NCBI RefSeq assembly: GCF_000327505.1
Contig: NC_019942.1
Location: forward strand, 1,240,001-1,304,000
Reading direction: 5' to 3'
DNA from: Aciduliprofundum sp. MAR08-339
GTDB taxonomy: Archaea > Thermoplasmatota > Thermoplasmata > Thermoplasmatales > Aciduliprofundaceae
Length of the DNA: 64,000 nt
In this document: positions 50,638 to 64,000 of the stretch, piece after piece
Layout: each line of letters opens with the position of its first letter
How positions within the stretch are numbered: the first letter of the stretch is position 1
Notes under the pieces: model-generated
Seen by the model: the letters and a program-made list of their open reading frames with translations, nothing else
The model's database searches: none
What the model was told of the DNA's origin: nothing
Translations under genes and position numbers: made by a program

Positions 50638-52953
50638 ATGAGTGGTGAGAAAAAGATCGGAGGGATAGTGGTCACATTGGCCCTTTTGATGATTTTCAGC
50701 GGACTTATGACAGGTTTTTCAATGCAACAAAACAAAGGGACACAATTTACAGGATATGGCGAGAAGGTCACCATTAAGGGATTCACATACACTTCTCATG
50801 CGCCCATAAGGATAAACGGCGATTATGATTTCACCGCGGCAAATGGCGTGATTGGAGGAAGCGGGACGAAGGAGGATCCTTACATCATTTCCGGCTGGGA
50901 CATTGACGCACACGGCGCGGGAGATGCAATTTACATCGGGAACACGACCAAGTACTTCGTGGTGAGAGATTGCCAACTGCACAATGCTTCGTCTAGCTCC
51001 TGGCCTTACTTTGAAGGCGATGGAATCACGCTTTACAATGTGAAGAATGGAACAATTGAGAACAACACCATTTACAATAATGGGGGTGGCATCTACCTGG
51101 AGGATTCTAGCAACAACACGATCACCAGCAACACCATTTACAACAATTCACAGGATGGCATCTACATGTGGTATTCCGGCAGCAACAGGTTGTATGGAAA
51201 CAAACTGACAAATAATGGAATATTTCTGGATGGAGATAAGAGTACATTCACCACGCAGGATATACCGACCAACAACACGGTGAACGGCAAGCCAGTGTAC
51301 TACTACAAAAATGCGAACATGCACAACGCAACCGTGCCGTTGAATGCCGGGCAGGTGATTTTGGGCAATGTCTCATGGCTCAGAGTTGAAAATCTTAAGA
51401 TAAGCAAAGCAAGCGTGGGCATAGAAGTTGGCTATTCCTCAAACATAACCATCGCCAGCAACACCATTTACAACAATTCACAGGATGGCATCGACCTAGA
51501 ATCATCCAGCAACAATGTGCTCACCAACAATATCATCTACAAGAATGGGAATGGCATCTACCTGGGTCCTTCCAGCAGCATCACGATCACAAACAACACC
51601 ATCTACAACAATTCACGGGATGGTATCTACCTGTGTTATTCCAGCAGCAACACGGTCACCAGTAACACCATTTACAACAATTCCGGGGCTGGCATCTACC
51701 TGCCGGATTCCAGCAGCAACACGCTCGCCAACAACACAATTTACAACAATCCCGCGGATGGCATCTACCTATGGTATTCCAGCAGCAACACGCTCGCCAA
51801 CAACACAATTTACAACAATAGTGATAGCATCTTCCTGTGTTGTTCCAGCAGCAACACGATCACCAGCAACACAATTTACAACAATCCCGCGGATGGCATC
51901 TACCTAGAAGATTCCAGCAAAAATGTGCTCACCAACAATATCATCTACAAGAATTGGAATGGCATCTACCTGGATTCTTCCAACAGCATCACGATCACCT
52001 GGAGCAACACGATCACCAGCAACACAATTTACAACAACTCTGAGGATGGCATCCGCCTGTGGGATTCCATCAGCAACACGCTCGCCAGCAACACAATTTA
52101 CAACAATGATGATGGCATCTACCTGTATTCTTCCATCAGCAACACGCTCGCCAGCAACACAATTTACAACAATGATGATGGCATCTACCTGGTGGATTCC
52201 AGCAACAATGTGCTCACCAACAATATCATCTACAAGAATGGGAATGGCATCTACCTGGATTCTTCCAGCAGCATCACGATCACAAACAACGGCATAAGGA
52301 GCAACTACGGTTATGGAGTTTACATTGATTCTGGGTCAAACAACAGGATATACAGCAACACCTTCGCATACAACAACGGCTCAAATTCCACATACAACTA
52401 CTCGCACATTCAGGCCTGTGATGATGGAAGTAGCAATTACTGGGACACATCAAAATATGGCAACTACTGGCTCGACTGGGCGGAGAATAACGATACTAAT
52501 GATGAGAATCACGACGGCATAGTGGACTGGCCCTACAGAATAGATGGCTCTGCGGGAGCGAAGGATTACTATCCGCTCAAGAACCGCACCGTTATAATGG
52601 TTCCTCTGCCTCCGCAGAACCTTCAAGCAAAAGCGGGAGATGGATATGTGAATCTCACCTGGAGCGCGCCTGCGGATAATGGTGGAAGTGCAATAACGGA
52701 ATACAGAATATATCGCAACGGAACATTGATTGCCACTGTTCCTGCGTCTCGGCTGTGGTACAACGACACCAATGTGACGCCGGGGCAGACATACATCTAC
52801 TATGTCACCGCCGTGAACTCCGTGGGCGAGAGTGATAAAAGCAACGAGGTGCAGGCAACGCCAAGCGGCGCGGTGCCAGAGTTCTCCGCGATGTACGCGG
52901 TGACGGTGGTTCTCCTCGTGGCACTCGTGATTTTGAGGAGAAGACGATCTTGA
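50638..52953 (+). CDS. Surface protein with parallel beta-helix (NosD/PbH1) repeats and FN3 domain
   Basis: A 771-residue cell-surface protein: signal peptide/N-terminal helix (about 8-28), a start domain (to about 120), a long right-handed beta-helix built from about 23-residue repeats of the form SSSNTITSNTIYNNSxDGIYL (about 135-590), a closing region with WDTSKYGNYWLDW, a fibronectin type III domain (about 655-745; PPQNLQAKAGDGYVNLTWSAP) and a C-terminal PEFSAMYAV-helix-RRRRS tail that looks like an archaeosortase-type or membrane anchor. Probably binds or cleaves carbohydrate, or is structural. TATA AAATTTATAAATT at about 50594-50606; GGTGG before the ATG. Confidence 0.88.
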   Translation: MSGEKKIGGIVVTLALLMIFSGLMTGFSMQQNKGTQFTGYGEKVTIKGFTYTSHAPIRINGDYDFTAANGVIGGSGTKEDPYIISGWDIDAHGAGDAIYIGNTTKYFVVRDCQLHNASSSSWPYFEGDGITLYNVKNGTIENNTIYNNGGGIYLEDSSNNTITSNTIYNNSQDGIYMWYSGSNRLYGNKLTNNGIFLDGDKSTFTTQDIPTNNTVNGKPVYYYKNANMHNATVPLNAGQVILGNVSWLRVENLKISKASVGIEVGYSSNITIASNTIYNNSQDGIDLESSSNNVLTNNIIYKNGNGIYLGPSSSITITNNTIYNNSRDGIYLCYSSSNTVTSNTIYNNSGAGIYLPDSSSNTLANNTIYNNPADGIYLWYSSSNTLANNTIYNNSDSIFLCCSSSNTITSNTIYNNPADGIYLEDSSKNVLTNNIIYKNWNGIYLDSSNSITITWSNTITSNTIYNNSEDGIRLWDSISNTLASNTIYNNDDGIYLYSSISNTLASNTIYNNDDGIYLVDSSNNVLTNNIIYKNGNGIYLDSSSSITITNNGIRSNYGYGVYIDSGSNNRIYSNTFAYNNGSNSTYNYSHIQACDDGSSNYWDTSKYGNYWLDWAENNDTNDENHDGIVDWPYRIDGSAGAKDYYPLKNRTVIMVPLPPQNLQAKAGDGYVNLTWSAPADNGGSAITEYRIYRNGTLIATVPASRLWYNDTNVTPGQTYIYYVTAVNSVGESDKSNEVQATPSGAVPEFSAMYAVTVVLLVALVILRRRRS
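51060..52295 (+). repeat. Tandem coding repeats of about 69 bp (beta-helix coils)
   Basis: Within the surface protein gene the unit AACACAATTTACAACAAT, then a short variable part and GATGGCATCTACCTG, recurs with a period near 69 bp (23 codons), with a few units altered by one or two codons. Several neighbouring units are almost identical at the DNA level (for example around 52090 and 52155), a sign of recent slippage or recombination. Confidence 0.85.
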
Positions 52954-56729: not shown

Positions 56730-56815
56730 GCCGGGGTAGCCAAGTGGACTACGGCGCCAGCCTTGAGAGCTGGTCCCCTTTCTTGGGGGCGGGAGTTCGA
56801 ATCTCCCCCCCGGCG
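56730..56815 (+). tRNA. tRNA-Ser (anticodon TGA)
   Basis: 86-nt class II tRNA: acceptor GCCGGGG/CCCCGGC with discriminator G, anticodon stem CCAGC/GCTGG with loop CTTGAGA (anticodon TGA), long variable arm CCCC-TTTCTT-GGGG, T arm GGGAG/CTCCC with loop TTCGAAT. No intron, no encoded CCA. The AT-rich accessory region begins right after it, so it may be an integration site; no second copy of its 3' end is seen in the window. Confidence 0.96.
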
Positions 56816-57099
56816 CCTGTTTTTTGTATTCTCCTTAGTTATGGTGGGATATAAGAGATAAATTCCCCCTTTAACTTAGTAAATGAGATCCAATAATTTT
56901 TAAGATTTTTCTGTAGATATGCGAATTCAAACACTTTTAATTTTTTCTTACTAAAATTAAACCCGGATTAAATTTTAGTAAGATTAGTATACAAGGGATG
57001 TAAGGATATAAAGATGTACATCTAGGGGAGATGGAGCAGATATTTGCAAGAATACTTCGGAGAAACTTTTATTTATCACATGTTGAGTAGAGAATAACC
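56816..57099. other. Intergenic AT-rich stretch beside tRNA-Ser with long inverted repeat
   Basis: 284 bp without a gene. CTTACTAAAATTAA (56947-56960) and TTAAATTTTAGTAAG (56968-56982) form an inverted repeat of 14-15 bp around ACCCGGA, with one base of asymmetry. Further TTAGTA-type words stand at about 56875 and 56985. A TATA-like CTTTTATTTATCAC at about 57066-57079 serves the next gene. The inverted repeat may be an operator or a recombination site. Confidence 0.55.
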
Positions 57100-57390
57100 A
57101 TGGAGCATTTTAATGGCATGCACGCAGAAATCCTTACCCGTGGGGGCATGAGGGATGGCATTGTGAAGGAGATTAATGATGAATGGATATTGCTGGATGA
57201 ATGTGAGCCGCATCTTTATCCCCTGAACGATGTGGCGATCATTCTAGCACCCTTCAACGATATACCTGATGAAAGTTTCGAGGAGAAAAAACGCAAAACG
57301 CTTAATCGTGCTCTTCTTATAAATTTCGCATTCATGCTCGCTTCGGCAATAATCTTTGCGGTGGTGGTGGCTCTAAGATGGGCGCAATAG
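57100..57390 (+). CDS. Small tail-anchored membrane protein (first of a pair)
   Basis: A 96-residue protein: a beta-rich cytoplasmic N-terminal domain that looks like a small SH3/LSM-type barrel (GMRDGIVKEINDEWILLDE), a linker with Glu/Lys, and one C-terminal membrane helix (about 72-94). Function unknown. A TATA box about 25-30 bp before the ATG gives a very short or no leader. The next gene starts 13 bp before its stop and has the same architecture, so the two probably form a complex. Confidence 0.6.
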   Translation: MEHFNGMHAEILTRGGMRDGIVKEINDEWILLDECEPHLYPLNDVAIILAPFNDIPDESFEEKKRKTLNRALLINFAFMLASAIIFAVVVALRWAQ

Positions 57391-57737
57391 ATGAATTTCT
57401 GGGAAAAACCGTGATAATCGTTGTCAATAATGGGGAAGAAGATTTTAGAATAGAGGGGACACTATTGAGAGAAGAGAGGGATTTTCTTGTTTTGAAAGAT
57501 ATCCATATGGAGGATGATTCCTATATATTCCACTATAAAATTGGAGTCATCAATAAGAACTATGTGCAATCTGTAAAAATAAGCAGTAAACCACTAAAAT
57601 CGCATGTATTTGAAGAGTATCGTAGTGAGGTTATGAGCTGGTTTTACTGGATGCTCTCATCAGAGTTCGGTATCATTATTGGAATTGCTGGAGTGCTCGT
57701 TGGAAAACTCTTGATGGGTATGTTTGCATATTGCTAA
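57378..57737 (+). CDS. Small tail-anchored membrane protein (second of a pair)
   Basis: A 119-residue protein with an N-terminal barrel-like beta region (KTVIIVVNNGEEDFRIEGTL, then LVLKDIHMEDDSYIFHYKIG) of the kind seen in LSM/SH3 folds, and a C-terminal membrane helix (about 95-115). It overlaps the preceding gene by 13 bp in another frame and repeats its layout. No known family. Confidence 0.6.
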   Translation: MGAIDEFLGKTVIIVVNNGEEDFRIEGTLLREERDFLVLKDIHMEDDSYIFHYKIGVINKNYVQSVKISSKPLKSHVFEEYRSEVMSWFYWMLSSEFGIIIGIAGVLVGKLLMGMFAYC

Positions 57738-57775
57738 TTGTTGCACTCTTTTTTTAAAATGCAAAATGGAACTCA

Positions 57776-58903
57776 TCACTTGGTTATATAATCCGGGTAA
57801 TTCAATTCTCCACCTATCATGTATTTACACACTCCAGGAAGTATCTCATAACGTTCAAGTTCTTTTAAAATTTCAAGCAGTTTTTTTCTACCTTCATACA
57901 TCTGTTTTTTTAAAGATTTTAACTTTCCCATATGTTTTTCAACAATGTCATTTATGGTGGAATTATTAAAGATAGGATTTAAAATCTTTAAAATTTCATT
58001 CTTATTATCTCCTATTTTTGAGTAACCTATAACATATACGGGTCTCTCTACAAAATACTCTATTTGATATCTTCTCTCACCTTTACTGTATACTGGTGTA
58101 ACTTGAATAAATCCAGATATTTCTCCTCTTTCACTTATCAGATGATCTTTAATAGCCCTACTTAGACCATCTATGTAAAACTCTATTTCTTCATTACTTA
58201 CAAGCCTCTTAACTCCCATGACTATTTCTTTTAAGAGTGATTTGTGCAATTTTCTATATTCTGTAAAATTTTTCTCTATTCTCTCTTCAATGCTTATAGG
58301 ATTGTAAGCATTTCTCCATTTTACAGGAATATGATTTTTCAAGTCAACGTAAAGAGGTTTTGATTTTATTTCCCGTTTGAACTCATTCATATATTCTTCA
58401 TACCACTTAAAATCGTCCTCAAGCAGTTTGATCCAAGGCGATATTATTTCCTCCTTCAATCTCTTAGTATGATTGAATCGAATAAAATTTCCCACATTGT
58501 TATCCTTAATTTTTACGTTGAGATAATCCTCTACCCATTTGGCAAGTTTTTCATTCTTCACCTTTACTATGGTAGTAGGTGATAGTGAATAGTATCCCTG
58601 TGGGTTTTGAACCAATACAGGTAACAGTTTTTTAACTCTTGTATCTTTTCTCTCTTTTTCTTCCTCTTTTGAACCTTCAATTTTGTCTATACTTCTTATC
58701 TTCTTGCAACCCGTGATCTCCCTAATACGATTTGCTATCGTATCTGGGGAGGGTTTGTCATCTGTGCCAGTTCCATAAAATTCCCAAAATATTTTGCGAG
58801 CTAAAGAGATAAGATATCGCCTACTAATTAGCTCATAATGTTGTACGATTTTGTATATTATTATGTGCTCTTCCTTTTCCAATATGACCTTATTTGACTG
58901 CAT
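57776..58903 (-). CDS. Hypothetical protein with probable N-terminal HTH
   Basis: Not recognised. The 375-residue protein is basic and soluble. Residues about 8-70 have a helical pattern like a winged helix (IIIYKIVQHYELISRRYLIS, then SPDTIANRIREITG), the middle is helical and charged, and about 255-310 is a beta-rich segment (ISGFIQVTPVYSKGERRYQI). No nuclease or ATPase motif is seen. A TATA-like CCATATATGTC lies about 25 bp before the ATG, within the 60-bp gap shared with the divergent RHH gene, so the two may be co-regulated. Confidence 0.6.
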   Translation of the reverse strand: MQSNKVILEKEEHIIIYKIVQHYELISRRYLISLARKIFWEFYGTGTDDKPSPDTIANRIREITGCKKIRSIDKIEGSKEEEKERKDTRVKKLLPVLVQNPQGYYSLSPTTIVKVKNEKLAKWVEDYLNVKIKDNNVGNFIRFNHTKRLKEEIISPWIKLLEDDFKWYEEYMNEFKREIKSKPLYVDLKNHIPVKWRNAYNPISIEERIEKNFTEYRKLHKSLLKEIVMGVKRLVSNEEIEFYIDGLSRAIKDHLISERGEISGFIQVTPVYSKGERRYQIEYFVERPVYVIGYSKIGDNKNEILKILNPIFNNSTINDIVEKHMGKLKSLKKQMYEGRKKLLEILKELERYEILPGVCKYMIGGELNYPDYITK

Positions 58904-58963
58904 ATGACCACTTTACAAAAGACATATATGGATGATAGTATATAGTAATTTGGGTGAGAAAAA
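58904..58963. promoter_or_regulatory. Divergent promoter region between unknown gene and RHH gene
   Basis: The 60-bp gap holds CATATATGG (about 58922-58930), spaced for the minus-strand gene, and the palindromic AGTATATAGT (58936-58945), spaced for the plus-strand RHH gene. Adjacent, opposite TATA elements with palindromic character suit autoregulation by the RHH protein. Confidence 0.45.
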
Positions 58964-59155
58964 ATGTCTAGTAGAATCACTTCCTTAAGAATTGACGAAA
59001 GGGACTACGAGCTTATTGAGCAGGCAGCTACAGCCTTGGGGATAAAGGCCAGTGATTTCATAAGGATGGCTATTAGAAAAGAGCTTGCAAATTATGGGCT
59101 TATATCTGGAATGGAGGCAAAGATACTGGGGGGTAATTTAAAGAGGCAAATTTAG
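58964..59155 (+). CDS. Small ribbon-helix-helix protein
   Basis: A 63-residue RHH protein: strand SSRITSLRIDERDYELIEQ, helices AATALGIKASDFIRMAIRKEL (about 24-44). Such single-domain RHH proteins are plasmid/virus-type regulators or antitoxins. GGGTGAG six bases before the ATG and a TATA palindrome 25 bp upstream support the start. No toxin gene follows directly; the next 470 bp hold no clear gene. Confidence 0.85.
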   Translation: MSSRITSLRIDERDYELIEQAATALGIKASDFIRMAIRKELANYGLISGMEAKILGGNLKRQI

Positions 59156-59626
59156 AGAGCTATGAAGAATTTTACGCCATGATCAAAAAAGAAGGAACAC
59201 TGCTAATTATCAGGATAATTTGAATAAGGTACTATCTCAAGAGTATGCAGATTATGGAAACATGGGCTTTAAGATGATCCAGGTTCCATAAAAGAATAGG
59301 TTCCGAAATATTACTGTAAGTCTTGTAAAAAAATCACGCAACTTCTTGGGCAAATTATCTTATAATATAGTGTTTAAAAAGGGGGTTAATTACTTAACTG
59401 TTCGAGTTTACTCAATCGGAAAACAATGGAACTCAGTGGAAATCACGTTTATTACTTGTTTTCATATACATGGAACTCTTTGGAACTCATTGGAACAACA
59501 TGGAACCCTTATGGTAAGGTTATAACAATGCGTCCTGTAATATAATATAACACAAATTATCACAGAAACATAGTTTTGTACTACTTTTCCGAACAAAGAT
59601 TTATAAGCCAGTGTGGGTATGAATTA
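59156..59626 (+). other. Gene-poor stretch with promoters and decamer array
   Basis: About 470 bp in which I find no convincing gene. The first 260 bp contain only short frames broken by stops and may be decayed coding sequence; one frame after the RHH stop reads EANLESYEEFYAMIKKEG before stopping. The decamer array lies at 59417-59510. Two TATA-like elements follow: TAATATAATATAAC (59538-59551) and GATTTATAAGC (59599-59609). Confidence 0.55.
59417..59510 (+). repeat. Phased TGGAAC decamer array (iteron-like)
   Basis: TGGAACNNNN units with exact 10-bp period: 59471, 59481, 59491 and 59501 in tandem, and an upstream pair at 59427 (TGGAACTCAG) and 59437 (TGGAAATCAC), preceded by a degenerate CGGAAAACAA at 59417. 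Two groups are separated by a 24-bp AT-rich spacer. A 10-bp spacing puts every copy on the same face of the helix, as in iterons or cooperative operator arrays. Confidence 0.75.
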
Positions 59627-60448
59627 ATGGTGGTCAAAATGCAAAAGACAAAATCAAGTATGGAGACCTTGTACGGAAATCTGGAAGAGATAGTGAGACA
59701 GGGATACATATTTAGAGAGAGTGTAAAATACAAGGGAAATACAGCGTACTTCTACTTTATATCTCTGGATGGAGAGGATAGAAGAAACGAGAAACTGGAA
59801 TTTGAGAACAGGGAAGATGTTGAAGAAATTGTGGACAGGCTAGCCGAGCTGATGAAAAAAATGTACGGTGTGGCATTCTACACTCCAAGCGAAAAAAAGG
59901 AGGATAAAAAAGAAAAAGCTGAATCTTTCAAATCCAAGGCCAAAATTACTGCGACAATGAGCAGCTACGACAAGAGCTTTGCAAGACATATAAACATACT
60001 GGCAGAAAAAGAAGAATGGCTGGTGACAATAATATCAGAACTGGGTATTAGAACACTATTTATCATCCTACAGATGGCAGATATTCCTCCCCATGAGTGG
60101 TACACCAAACTGGGCGAATATGCAAGTGACCCCCAAGCATTTGTTAATTTCGCTGAGAAGTACATAGTTGCGTTGTTTGAAGCGAAGCAGGATGCGAAGA
60201 AGATGCTTGAGATGAGGAGCGAGATGGCAATGCTAATAGCACAGAACGAGGCTCTTAAGTTTGCGTTAAAGAACAGAGAAGAGACGATAAGAGACCTAAT
60301 AGAGCGTTTAAATGCACTGACGAGTATGCTTTCAAAGAACCAAATACAGAGGTACATAATCTGGGATGCTTTAAGACAGCAGGTGAAGCAGAAGAAGGGT
60401 ACGAATATAAGTTTGCCGAGTAAGGAAGGAGGTAGTGTAAAAGGATAA
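59627..60448 (+). CDS. Hypothetical coiled-coil protein downstream of the decamer array
   Basis: Not recognised. From the ATG at 59627 the protein has 273 residues: a first small domain (about 1-80, with strands GYIFRESVKYKGNTAYFYFI), a Lys/Glu linker, a helical region near 115-190 (EEWLVTIISELGIRTLFIIL) and a coiled coil (about 190-245) rich in Met and Ala. The frame is open to TTG 59576, but TATA GATTTATAAGC at 59599-59609 is spaced for a leaderless start at 59627. The general plan, with N-terminal domain plus coiled coil, would suit a DNA-binding or partition-type protein that acts on the array; this is speculation. Confidence 0.6.
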   Translation: MVVKMQKTKSSMETLYGNLEEIVRQGYIFRESVKYKGNTAYFYFISLDGEDRRNEKLEFENREDVEEIVDRLAELMKKMYGVAFYTPSEKKEDKKEKAESFKSKAKITATMSSYDKSFARHINILAEKEEWLVTIISELGIRTLFIILQMADIPPHEWYTKLGEYASDPQAFVNFAEKYIVALFEAKQDAKKMLEMRSEMAMLIAQNEALKFALKNREETIRDLIERLNALTSMLSKNQIQRYIIWDALRQQVKQKKGTNISLPSKEGGSVKG

Positions 60449-60695
60449 AAGAGTAGAAGGCAATTTTAAGGCTGGGGTACGATGATGCCAAGACAGTTTA
60501 ATGCACCAACTTCCAGACTCCTCAAACACACACTTCAGAGGTTTATCTTATGAACCCCATACGTAAGATGAGCAAGGCAGAACAGATGCCTTATGTTGAG
60601 ATCGAATAATATCAAAGATCATTATAACTCTTTTTCTGAAGTTTTAGTATATGTGGACATCTATAAAGAGTTATTTTTTAGATTTTCAGTAATAT
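60449..60695. other. Intergenic stretch, nothing definite
   Basis: About 250 bp between the coiled-coil gene and the convergent membrane protein gene. Only a 23-codon frame (from about 60482) is seen on the plus strand; no promoter, tRNA or repeat stands out. Confidence 0.4.
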
Positions 60696-62111
60696 TCATT
60701 CGATTAAATTAAGAAGATCCCTTGGTATCTTATCTATAGGAAAATTTGCTTTTGAAAGCATATTTTTTAATTCTTGGATCGTATACCTTGTTATGGTATC
60801 TTCTTCATCTTTAGAAGATTTGATATATTCTGATAATAGATCACTTATATCAATTACTAATTTCTCGGCCACAGTTTGATTGATTATTTTTGGGTGTTGG
60901 AAAATAGTCTGAAGATATTCTACTAGGTAGATAACTGTTGTATGATGAGTTTGAACAGAGATGTTATCTTTTATTACATTTAATAGGGCTTCAATCCAAT
61001 CTATTGAGGATTCATCTGATTTCCCATCTAACATACACTTAATCATTGTGATAATGTAGGATGAAATATTGTCTAAAGCGTCAATAAAGAAGTAGGTATT
61101 ATTGAATATTTGCTCATCTCTACCTATATCAGCTCCGAATATACCTTTGAACATATCCCCAATAAATTTATAAGTTGTGTAATCCCTCGCAGATGAAAAT
61201 TTGTTTTTGTTTAATGAAAACAGGGAAAAATCTATTTTTAAAAGTACCTCAATCAAAGATAACAACACTTTATGGAGACGGTTTTTATTTGATAAATAAA
61301 CATATATCTCAATCTGAGATAGGAATTCCCCATATATTCTCTCCTTTACCTCAGAATTTCCAGAGGGTTCCTCGGGAAAGCTTGTAACATATTGAGAAAA
61401 TACATAATATAAAGTTTTTATACCCTCATCAGCAACAACCTCATCCCTATTATTAATGGCCTTGCTAATAGTTTCATAAAATGCACTGTATATCCATTTA
61501 TAGTTTTCCTCTATGTATTTTGGATTCTTCATCCTTCTCTCGGATATCTCACTATTAAGAATCTTAAAGAAATATTCTGGATCTAAAGATTTTAATATAT
61601 TATAAATCCTTGATCCAGTATAAAGCCCCAAAGTAATAACTAGTGAGATTTCAAGTGATATGGCAATTTTATAAGCAATCCAGTTTTTTATTCCATAAAG
61701 AAGGACTAATGAATTTAAAGATATTCCTAATGCGATGACATATGCCAGTATATATCCCTCCAGATCCCAGTTCCTTTTAGGTAAAAATTTCCAGCTTTTA
61801 TAGCTGTATTTTTTATCTAAAAACTGCATACCTACAACTAAACCCGTAATGCCCAATCCGAACATAGCTGCTGTACCTTGAAAAATTGCACTAAGTAGAT
61901 ATTCTTGTAAAGTAATATTGATTGGAGTATAATACATATCTACTAATGTTATAACAAATAATATTATGAAGAAAATTGAAAGTGGTTTATAACTAATTAA
62001 CTCCGTAGTCCAGTTATGTTTCCAATTCTTATTTTTCAGATTTTCAACCACTTGTGGATCCACGCATTTTGTAGGCCAAAACAAAATCACTTTTTCTTTA
62101 TTTCTTTGCAT
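60696..62111 (-). CDS. Membrane protein with large helical cytoplasmic domain, unknown
   Basis: Not recognised. The 471-residue protein has four membrane helices in the first 175 residues (about 45-60, 72-92, 118-138 and 145-163), then an almost entirely helical soluble region of some 300 residues with little homology to known enzymes. TATA-like ACATTTTATAG about 25 bp before the ATG indicates a leaderless transcript. It lies immediately downstream of hsdS on the same strand with its own promoter. Helix-plus-membrane proteins in restriction loci are often defence effectors; here that is inferred from position only. Confidence 0.6.
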   Translation of the reverse strand: MQRNKEKVILFWPTKCVDPQVVENLKNKNWKHNWTTELISYKPLSIFFIILFVITLVDMYYTPINITLQEYLLSAIFQGTAAMFGLGITGLVVGMQFLDKKYSYKSWKFLPKRNWDLEGYILAYVIALGISLNSLVLLYGIKNWIAYKIAISLEISLVITLGLYTGSRIYNILKSLDPEYFFKILNSEISERRMKNPKYIEENYKWIYSAFYETISKAINNRDEVVADEGIKTLYYVFSQYVTSFPEEPSGNSEVKERIYGEFLSQIEIYVYLSNKNRLHKVLLSLIEVLLKIDFSLFSLNKNKFSSARDYTTYKFIGDMFKGIFGADIGRDEQIFNNTYFFIDALDNISSYIITMIKCMLDGKSDESSIDWIEALLNVIKDNISVQTHHTTVIYLVEYLQTIFQHPKIINQTVAEKLVIDISDLLSEYIKSSKDEEDTITRYTIQELKNMLSKANFPIDKIPRDLLNLIE

Positions 62112-62213
62112 CTACCATATACAATTGACTTAGTCTATAAAATGTTTTCCAAACTAAAGATTTACCCAAACATTTTTTCACAGCACCCAGAAAATACTCA
62201 TTATTTCCTTTCC

Positions 62214-63458
62214 TCAATGTCCAAACACCTCCTCCAAGATGCTTTCCTTCATTTCCTTCAGTTGCGAAATCTGATTATGGATTTTCTCTTTCAGTGCTTT
62301 GATTTTCTCATAAACGCTATCAAGGTAGTTCGCTATTTCTTTCTGCTTTTCAAGGTCTGGCTGGTTGTTGTGGAAGGGTAGGGGGATTTTGAGGTTTTTA
62401 AGATGGTTTTTAGTGATTGCCTTAAATGTTGTCCCTCTTCTTCCCAAATCTTCTATCCTTTCTTTCATGTTAATAAGCAAATAGAACAAGTACTTGGACT
62501 CCCCGTTAAACCTTATGGCAGCTAATCCTCTTCCAATACAGTATTCACCATCTGCAATATTCACATCGCCTACAGGTGCTCTGACTGAAATTAGAACATC
62601 GTTTTTCTTACAAAGTTTTTTAGGATCTGTGGTGTATATGATAGGTTTAGGGTAAAGTTCTCTAAATTCTTTGTTTCCTTGGAGAAATAAGACTCCTTTT
62701 CCTTTTTTATTGTAAGAATTTGATGGGGGTGATTGCCCCATTATTATTTCAGCAATTGTTTTATCCCCCAACCTCACCTCCCTCCACTCCTCGCCCTCCT
62801 TCGGTTTAAACGCCTGCTCTAAGACGCTTTCCCAGAGTTCGTCAAGTTGCTCAAGTTCTTTCTTTTTCTTCTCCAGAATTTTGTCAATTCTTGAAAAGTT
62901 TGCCTCAATGTATTCAACGATTTTCTTTTGAGTTTCTAAATCTGGCTTGCCGTTGCGGAAGGGGAGATAAATACTTATTTTTCTTACCTTTTTAAGGTTA
63001 AGCATTTTAAATAGTTTTCTTCCGTAAGATTTTAAAAATGTGGAAGAAATAAGAGAATAAAAAAGATATTTGGGCAGCACCGAATCGCAATTATAAATTC
63101 CTGCAATGTTTTGATTTGTTGCTGCAGGAAAAGTTAGATATCCTACTTTCCCTAATGTAGCACCTACAAGCGCAATTAAAATCGTGTCTTTTGGAAAAAT
63201 TTTTGCGTTAGAGTTTAGCAAGCCGGCCTCTGTAATTCTTTCTTTTACCATTGTAGGATATACATACTGATTTTGACAAACTTCTGACCGAACCCATTCT
63301 ATGTCTCCATTCCAGTATTCTTTAACACTTCTTTTAGGGGTTCCCCCACTCTCAATGTTTTTACAAATGTCCCCCAACCTCACCTCTCTCCACTCAACCC
63401 CTTTAACTTCCCACGGTTTTGGAGATTTTATGTAGTCGTCAAGTTTTGCTGTTTTCAT
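62214..63458 (-). CDS. hsdS: Type I restriction-modification specificity subunit
   Basis: Chooses the DNA target of the type I complex. The 414-residue HsdS has two target-recognition domains, each opened by the repeat EWREVRLGDI/EEWREVRLGDK (about 23 and 228) and each followed by a coiled-coil spacer with the pattern LPFRNGKPDLETQKKIVEYI and LPFHNNQPDLEKQKEIANYL (about 170 and 370). The first TRD starts with ESGGTPKRSVKEYWNGDIEW, the second with MGQSPPSNSYNKKGKG. Its start overlaps hsdM by 4 bp. Target sequence cannot be read from the protein. Confidence 0.95.
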   Translation of the reverse strand: MKTAKLDDYIKSPKPWEVKGVEWREVRLGDICKNIESGGTPKRSVKEYWNGDIEWVRSEVCQNQYVYPTMVKERITEAGLLNSNAKIFPKDTILIALVGATLGKVGYLTFPAATNQNIAGIYNCDSVLPKYLFYSLISSTFLKSYGRKLFKMLNLKKVRKISIYLPFRNGKPDLETQKKIVEYIEANFSRIDKILEKKKKELEQLDELWESVLEQAFKPKEGEEWREVRLGDKTIAEIIMGQSPPSNSYNKKGKGVLFLQGNKEFRELYPKPIIYTTDPKKLCKKNDVLISVRAPVGDVNIADGEYCIGRGLAAIRFNGESKYLFYLLINMKERIEDLGRRGTTFKAITKNHLKNLKIPLPFHNNQPDLEKQKEIANYLDSVYEKIKALKEKIHNQISQLKEMKESILEEVFGH

Positions 63459-64000
63459 CTTAACATCCCTTTCAACTCTTCAAGCAAAGTAAAAATCTTT
63501 TTTTCCTCTATCAAAACATCTTCTAAAATATCTCTTGCTGGCCTATAATCCTTCTTCTTTAACTTGTTTGGGTTTCTTGGCGTTAATTCGTAAGTTTCCC
63601 TATCAATCTCATCAATCTTAACAATCCAAGAGTTTTCGCTTATTTCTCTGTTCTTCCACTTTTCATAGCAATCCTGCCAGTCCTCATCTATCATAGGTCT
63701 CGTTTTGGTAAAGTTCTTCATGCCTTCTGGTGGTTGAATCTCATAGTACCAAATCTCCTGAGTTGGTCCTGTTTTGTCAAAGAAAAGAAGATTTGTTTTA
63801 GAGGGAGTTTTACCCGTTGCTGTGAACACCCCCCTTGGTAAAGAGATAATCGTATGCACATTGTAATTTTCAAGAAGCTCTTTCCTAACCCTTACAAATG
63901 GACTGGGGATGTTTGATAAAACGCCCTCTGGAACCACTATGCCCACTCTACCACCATGCTTTATTTTCCTCATCACGTACTGGAGAGCCATTAACTCGGT
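63455..64000 (-). CDS. hsdM: Type I restriction-modification methyltransferase, C-terminal part
   Basis: The visible 181 or so residues are the end of an adenine-N6 methyltransferase HsdM: ALQYVMRKIKHGGRVGIVVPEGVL is the conserved block shortly after the NPPF motif, followed by IISLPRGVFTATGKTPSKTN and FDKTGPTQEIWYYE typical of this family. The frame continues without a stop to the window edge, so the catalytic NPPF motif and SAM-binding part lie outside. hsdR is not visible and may be further upstream. Confidence 0.93.
   Translation of the reverse strand, partial: TELMALQYVMRKIKHGGRVGIVVPEGVLSNIPSPFVRVRKELLENYNVHTIISLPRGVFTATGKTPSKTNLLFFDKTGPTQEIWYYEIQPPEGMKNFTKTRPMIDEDWQDCYEKWKNREISENSWIVKIDEIDRETYELTPRNPNKLKKKDYRPARDILEDVLIEEKKIFTLLEELKGMLR

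Follow-up and report, generated by a model that had tools for sequence, protein, structure and literature searches.

The decamer array that lies between a small RHH gene and the gene of a 273-aa protein in Aciduliprofundum sp. MAR08-339 forms one part of a larger composite element, which recurs on the same plan, but with differing repeat units, in related archaea. The DNA analysed was a stretch of 64,000 nucleotides (contig NC_019942.1, positions 1,240,001 to 1,304,000), hereafter referred to as the window. We propose, with a probability of roughly 45%, that the downstream protein has its cognate binding site in the array and that the two together form an autoregulated, iteron- or centromere-like maintenance locus of integrated elements. 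That the array is recognised by the 273-aa family protein appears highly probable from the sequence comparisons, since such recognition best explains why one protein family is linked to arrays of changing wording and to inverted units of the same wording. In these archaeal loci, DNA-binding specificities that diverged in pairs (array wording versus protein) would be available as a natural series, next to an invariant core. If the pairing is confirmed, the co-change of a repeat array and its reader, as well as the effect of solo arrays on incoming elements, would become testable. A limited literature search found no description of these elements, which does not prove that none exists.

Architecture of the element in the window

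The array consists of two groups of decamer units (Table 1), the unit steps being exactly 10 bp inside each group and 34 bp between the groups. The positions, the period of 10 given by Tandem Repeats Finder for both groups and the shuffled sequences all agreed with the exactly spaced, two-group arrangement described in an earlier note on this DNA. Its count of six clear units and one degenerate unit stood as to the total of seven but not as to the perfect copies: five units read TGGAAC exactly, one reads TGGAAA and one CGGAAA. When the whole window was searched for runs of exact 5-mers (at least four copies, periods 7-15), three rows were obtained, of which two were the array and the third was a T-run, and comparable runs occurred 0.03 times on average in dinucleotide shuffles of the window (n = 30). 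The change of GC skew that had been suggested as a check gave no site-specific signal, the sign changes near the array being no larger than elsewhere in the window.

The whole element spans about 59282-59510. It begins with inverted copies of the unit and an invariant core, after which comes the direct array; a TATA-like box and the 273-aa gene lie downstream of it. The inverted units and the core had been missed by the earlier note, whereas both open reading frames between which it had placed the array are present.

Table 1. Features of the element and its surroundings (window positions unless a locus is named).
Feature	Position	Strand	Description
tRNA-Ser(tga)	56730..56817	+	left border of island
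Island, part in window	56820..64000	.	island of ~10.8 kb, runs to about window position 67607
Small RHH (CopG/RelB-like) gene	58964..59155	+	weak Pfam hits below curated cut-offs; outside conserved unit
Inverted unit 1	59282..59289	-	GGTTCCAT = ATGGAACC on minus strand
Inverted unit 2	59299..59306	-	GGTTCCGA; one mismatch to unit
Invariant core motif, 16 bp	59334..59349	+	TCACGCAACTTCTTGG; common to elements of the family
Array group 1	59417..59446	+	three decamer units: CGGAAA at 59417 (degenerate), TGGAAC at 59427, TGGAAA at 59437
Array group 2	59471..59510	+	four decamer units: TGGAAC at 59471, 59481, 59491 and 59501
TATA-like box ahead of 273-aa gene	59600..59607	+	TTTATAAG; presumed promoter element
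273-aa protein gene	59627..60448	+	family only in Aciduliprofundum-like archaea; proposed array-binding protein
Core-linked winged-helix-like gene	L036:1501-2472 (window genome C1:1373796), L018:1501-2887, L031:72-1455		reading of sequence

The core was found, with at most one mismatch, eight times in the window's genome, four times in the congeneric genome G001, three times in G002, twice in G003 and a few times in other family members. The reversed control pattern gave no match in the window's genome and 0 to 1 matches per genome overall. Across 22 copies most positions of the core show little or no variation, which is partly built in because the copies were chosen by the motif. Among 24 pattern matches, three (L022, L023 and L027) were read by eye as chance matches in coding sequence and one (L026) as doubtful, and with the diverged copy L011 added the set came to 21 loci.

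Three further ideas about the core and the element were considered and set aside. As a wider archaeal or viral signal, the core gave 27 genome-contig matches, seven of them in DHVE2/Aciduliprofundum MAGs and 20 in scattered bacterial singletons, and five of its six viral matches were near-copies of one sequence. A palindrome beside the core (GCGTGAAAAATTCACGC), viewed as a possible nicking hairpin, is perfect in few copies, imperfect in many and absent in the window and in L036; thus, it is not a defining feature. An RNA reading of the element found no Rfam family above the gathering score in L020, L029 or L033. In three genomes (L018, L031 and L036) the core lies directly upstream of a gene for a winged-helix-like and coiled-coil protein, with no decamer array. 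This gene had no Pfam family above the cut-off, and in the window's genome a CRISPR array comes after it.

A shared plan with locus-specific units

The core was present upstream of the gene at all eight loci that carry a member of the 273-aa family, at seven of them by the pattern and in the diverged G006 copy by eye. Short repeats accompany it at every one of these loci and their wording differs: TGGAAC in the window, CGAAAC in G006, TGCAAAA at the C4 locus of G002, CTAAAC at 1102k, CTCGAA at 705k and TTGTGAA in G001, at the C62 locus of G002 and in G003. The earlier note had regarded its proposal as lost if neither neighbouring protein bound the array and the array were not conserved next to these genes in any related genome. 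Arrays of like architecture were found upstream of homologues of the downstream gene in four other genomes, so the second of these objections does not apply.

To assess helical phasing, the 450 bp that follow the core were scored for the 6-mer that best recurred at intervals of 9-11 bp, and the value was compared with 200 shuffles per locus; L021 and L032 were too short for this. The observed value was reached by none of the 200 shuffles at 10 of the 23 loci tested (L011, L019, L020, L024, L029, L033, L034, L037, L038 and L041). The 13 loci that failed were the three with a winged-helix-like gene, three probable chance matches, L025, L026, L039 and the gene loci L028, L030, L035 and L040. Thus, half of the gene loci (4/8) passed this strict test, and the failure of the other four counts against the maintenance reading; three of these four are orthologues with units in both orientations. 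Such failures would also suit the view that the array is functionless DNA, of low complexity or arisen by chance, but this is scarcely credible in the face of the shuffle tests, the locus-specific units, the inverted copies and the concerted change of units, and the comparisons already disfavour it.

The specificity of the units was seen when they were compared across loci. CGAAAC occurs in seven copies at its own locus and in none at 15 others, and TGCAAAA in 10 copies at its own locus versus at most one elsewhere, whereas TGGAAA proved to be an unspecific word in this comparison. The abundance of a unit at its own locus is partly circular because the units were picked by eye. Two other observations are less circular. 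At 11 of 16 loci, the unit of that locus recurred left of the core as an exact inverted copy, compared with 13 of 160 cells in which a unit was sought at a foreign locus. Moreover, when the 1102k and 819k copies were aligned, all eight CTAAAC units of 1102k were altered in 819k: seven share an A-to-C change to CAAC (five CTCAAC and two TCCAAC) and one is shifted by a base. The 1230k copy keeps all eight CTAAAC units. The identity between the 1102k and 819k copies was 123/154 columns in the core part, 123/170 in the array part and 187/227 in the right part.

At the gene loci the array has the core on one side and the gene's promoter region on the other, which is where a cooperative operator would be expected if the protein did nothing more than repress its own promoter, and possibly others, with no role in replication, partition or movement. 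We consider this unlikely, since seven units together with inverted units and a separate core exceed the needs of a simple repressor, the invariant core is unrelated to the unit and always present, and intact arrays also occur in front of no such gene. Some of these solo arrays have a unit that matches no gene-linked array seen in their genome (GGTAAAA in L034/L037 and CTCAAC in L019), and this too speaks against the maintenance reading. A rather improbable explanation would be that solo arrays are kept as decoys, which keep incoming related elements out by titrating their array-binding protein, providing a DNA-only immunity by incompatibility. If this were true, the immunity would gather differing specificities, sometimes in the vicinity of other defence genes (type I R-M, BREX, type IIG R-M).

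The 273-aa protein family and its proposed role

A search of 61 related genomes detected homologues of the 273-aa protein in five, and a search across 400 genomes of the class likewise in five; every genome with a homologue belongs to the window's own family. The eight gene loci are distributed as three in the window's genome, two in G002 and one each in G001, G003 and G006. The gene at 1102k, in the window's genome, is truncated and that of G003 is split in two frames, which counts against the maintenance reading. No relative of the protein was found above the cut-off in Pfam, PHROGs, NCBIfam or the PDB, and no homologue in the plasmid collection searched. Likewise, Pfam, PHROGs and NCBIfam revealed no known Rep family or domain in it, relatives below detection being possible. 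The absence of a recognised replication or partition domain, and of a recognised NTPase partner of the ParMRC, TubZRC or ParABS type among the genes beside the array, also weighs against a maintenance function.

AlphaFold predicted an alpha-beta3-alpha N-terminal domain (residues about 7-80; block pLDDT 77-90 in the domain model), followed by helices at 101-163, a long helix at 169-234 and a further one at 237-255. Foldseek returned no match at E ≤ 0.001 for the whole model or for the N-terminal domain. The best VIA Z was 5.6 for the whole model, the match being a coiled coil, and 5.3 for the N-terminal domain, with small alpha/beta proteins of the ribosome and SRP at 2.5-3.3 Å over about 60 residues; both values are in the range of chance.

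In the mechanism that we propose, the 273-aa protein would most likely bind one unit of about 10 bp with each N-terminal domain, along one face of the helix, and would multimerise via its long helical C-terminal part, so that the array, and with it the inverted units next to the core, would be covered. The nucleoprotein complex on the array may repress or time the promoter of its own gene and may at the same time constitute the maintenance site of the integrated element, acting in replication control or partition, with the invariant core as a putative site for a second, shared factor. The unit wording and the protein would have changed together in each element lineage, and the gene-less copies would be dispersed, non-autonomous derivatives.

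Dispersed copies with discrete borders

There are four gene-less copies in the window's genome (453k, 604k, 819k and 1230k). BLASTn comparison revealed sharp borders: with positions counted from the core, the sequence common to four copies in this genome is confined to about -59 to +545/588, another pair of copies has -41 to +203 in common, and the G001 and G002 copies about -28 to +213. In the alignment of the copies, the shared sequence of the gene-less elements stops in the region that corresponds to the TATA-like box. At 453k the Mrp and PCNA genes are 644 bp apart, compared with 64-65 bp in the congeners G001, G002 and G003, which gives an insertion of ~580 bp. At 819k a copy of ~600 bp lies between a PIN-domain gene and tRNA-Leu, whereas in G002 about 40 bp precede a tRNA-Leu-like sequence. 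This tRNA-Leu(tag)-like sequence of G002 (L133:1950-2150) departs in the anticodon region, as would an intron-bearing or a disrupted gene. The 604k copy is found at one border of a stretch of ~5.1 kb, from serS to the next conserved gene, which by eye is absent in G002 and G003. The copies are thus discrete and absent from orthologous sites, as expected of insertion sequences and MITEs; at single polymorphic sites, however, a deletion in the congeners may account for the difference instead of an insertion in the window's genome.

MITEs and other non-autonomous repeats are short and dispersed, with sharp borders and insertion polymorphism, and the copies described here share all of these properties. 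They differ from MITEs in that no terminal inverted repeats were seen in the copies, in that there are no clear target duplications (in all four copies tested the best flank repeats were no better than those of shuffles), and in their internal array, the wording of which differs between copies in concert. A transposon-like unit, in which the arrays and inverted units are recognition sites of a mobility complex, the family protein is its specificity factor and the gene-less copies are moved in trans like MITEs, would account for the borders in the several subfamilies and for both of the short insertions; indeed, neat gene-less insertions of ~600 bp fit a transposon better than the remnant of a replicon. 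We nevertheless regard it as a possible but somewhat doubtful explanation, since, beyond the lack of visible terminal repeats and of clear target duplications, domain searches of the family protein found no transposase domain and the gene sits just outside the shared right border of the copies.

Comparison with known systems

The anatomy of the element resembles that of the stbDRs of R388 and of plasmid centromeres. In R388, according to the available part of PMC3098194, two sets of five 9-bp direct repeats, 2 nt apart (an 11-bp period), surround the stb operon promoter; they are bound by StbA, the first operon product, which alone is needed for stability. The element in the window likewise has two groups of short repeats, about one helical turn apart, upstream of a gene. 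It differs from the system in that text in its unit, its period of 10 bp, the invariant core and inverted units beside the array, the predicted alpha-beta3-alpha N-terminus with a long helix, the archaeal chromosomal location and the gene-less copies. In the protein-family searches, the 273-aa protein gave no hit that would relate it to StbA.

The origins of geminiviruses and nanoviruses, as far as the accessible text of PMC10653810 describes them, combine lineage-specific iterons, situated on one or both sides and sometimes inverted, with a conserved stem-loop. There, too, a private unit wording goes with the initiator while the neighbouring core is conserved, and the elements described here, with their private repeats next to a shared core, resemble this arrangement. 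By comparison with that description, no nicking or helicase domain was recognised in our elements, no circular genome is known for them, and several of them, though not the one in the window, have the palindrome next to the core. Type II and III plasmid centromeres (parC and tubC), in the portion of PMC5016525 available, have direct repeats arrayed as a single group or as several groups ahead of the operon. Groups of direct repeats lie upstream of a gene in our case also, but, unlike in the systems covered there, no actin- or tubulin-like partner gene was recognised next to the array. As in iteron-type plasmid replicons, helically phased direct repeats are found near the gene of their presumed binder; unlike in such replicons, this protein falls in no recognised Rep family.

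Genomic island and gene neighbourhood

In the congener G003, tRNA-Ser(tga) almost directly precedes sequence that is collinear with window position 67607 onward. The stretch of ~10.8 kb from tRNA-Ser to the conserved flank, in which the array is situated, is therefore absent there, and the suggestion of an integrated element holds. The island contains the element and its gene, two small membrane-type ORFs, 375-aa and 471-aa ORFs, the RHH gene and a type I R-M system. No repeat of the tRNA-Ser end of at least nine bases was found at the far island border. The 375-aa and 471-aa ORFs had no Pfam or NCBIfam family, and the other neighbours are R-M genes.

The RHH protein had been put forward as a possible partner of the array, and it could bind the repeats in the manner of ParR- or omega-type systems. 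Repeat arrays with small centromere-binding proteins of the RHH type are known (described in the part of PMC5016525 available), and about 260 bp separate the end of the upstream RHH gene from the array. However, of the neighbour contexts examined only that in the window has an RHH gene next to the array, and the 273-aa family, by contrast, is found at all gene loci, which makes the RHH protein a very unlikely binder.

Several further elements lie close to defence genes. In G006 homologous R-M genes (HsdM 81 and HsdR 86 per cent) are located downstream of its own element. In the window's genome the solo array at 1230k has BREX genes (BrxC and BrxP, minus strand) in its vicinity (L114:3204-8935) and the gene-bearing element at 1102k is beside two BrxD/SngB-like ATPase genes and a BrxHI/SngC-like helicase gene (L113:3898-8003); the C33 element of G001 is near a type IIG R-M gene. 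No enrichment of defence genes is claimed, because the neighbourhoods were viewed only for loci picked by eye. In addition, paired small ORFs with C-terminal membrane segments were noticed at 57100-57737 of the window; the 1102k element is preceded by a pair that resembles them in appearance (L113:9117-9718). Elsewhere in the window, long in-frame repeats of ~66/135 bp (51451-52290) were observed inside the gene of a 771-aa repetitive, probably secreted protein (50638-52953).
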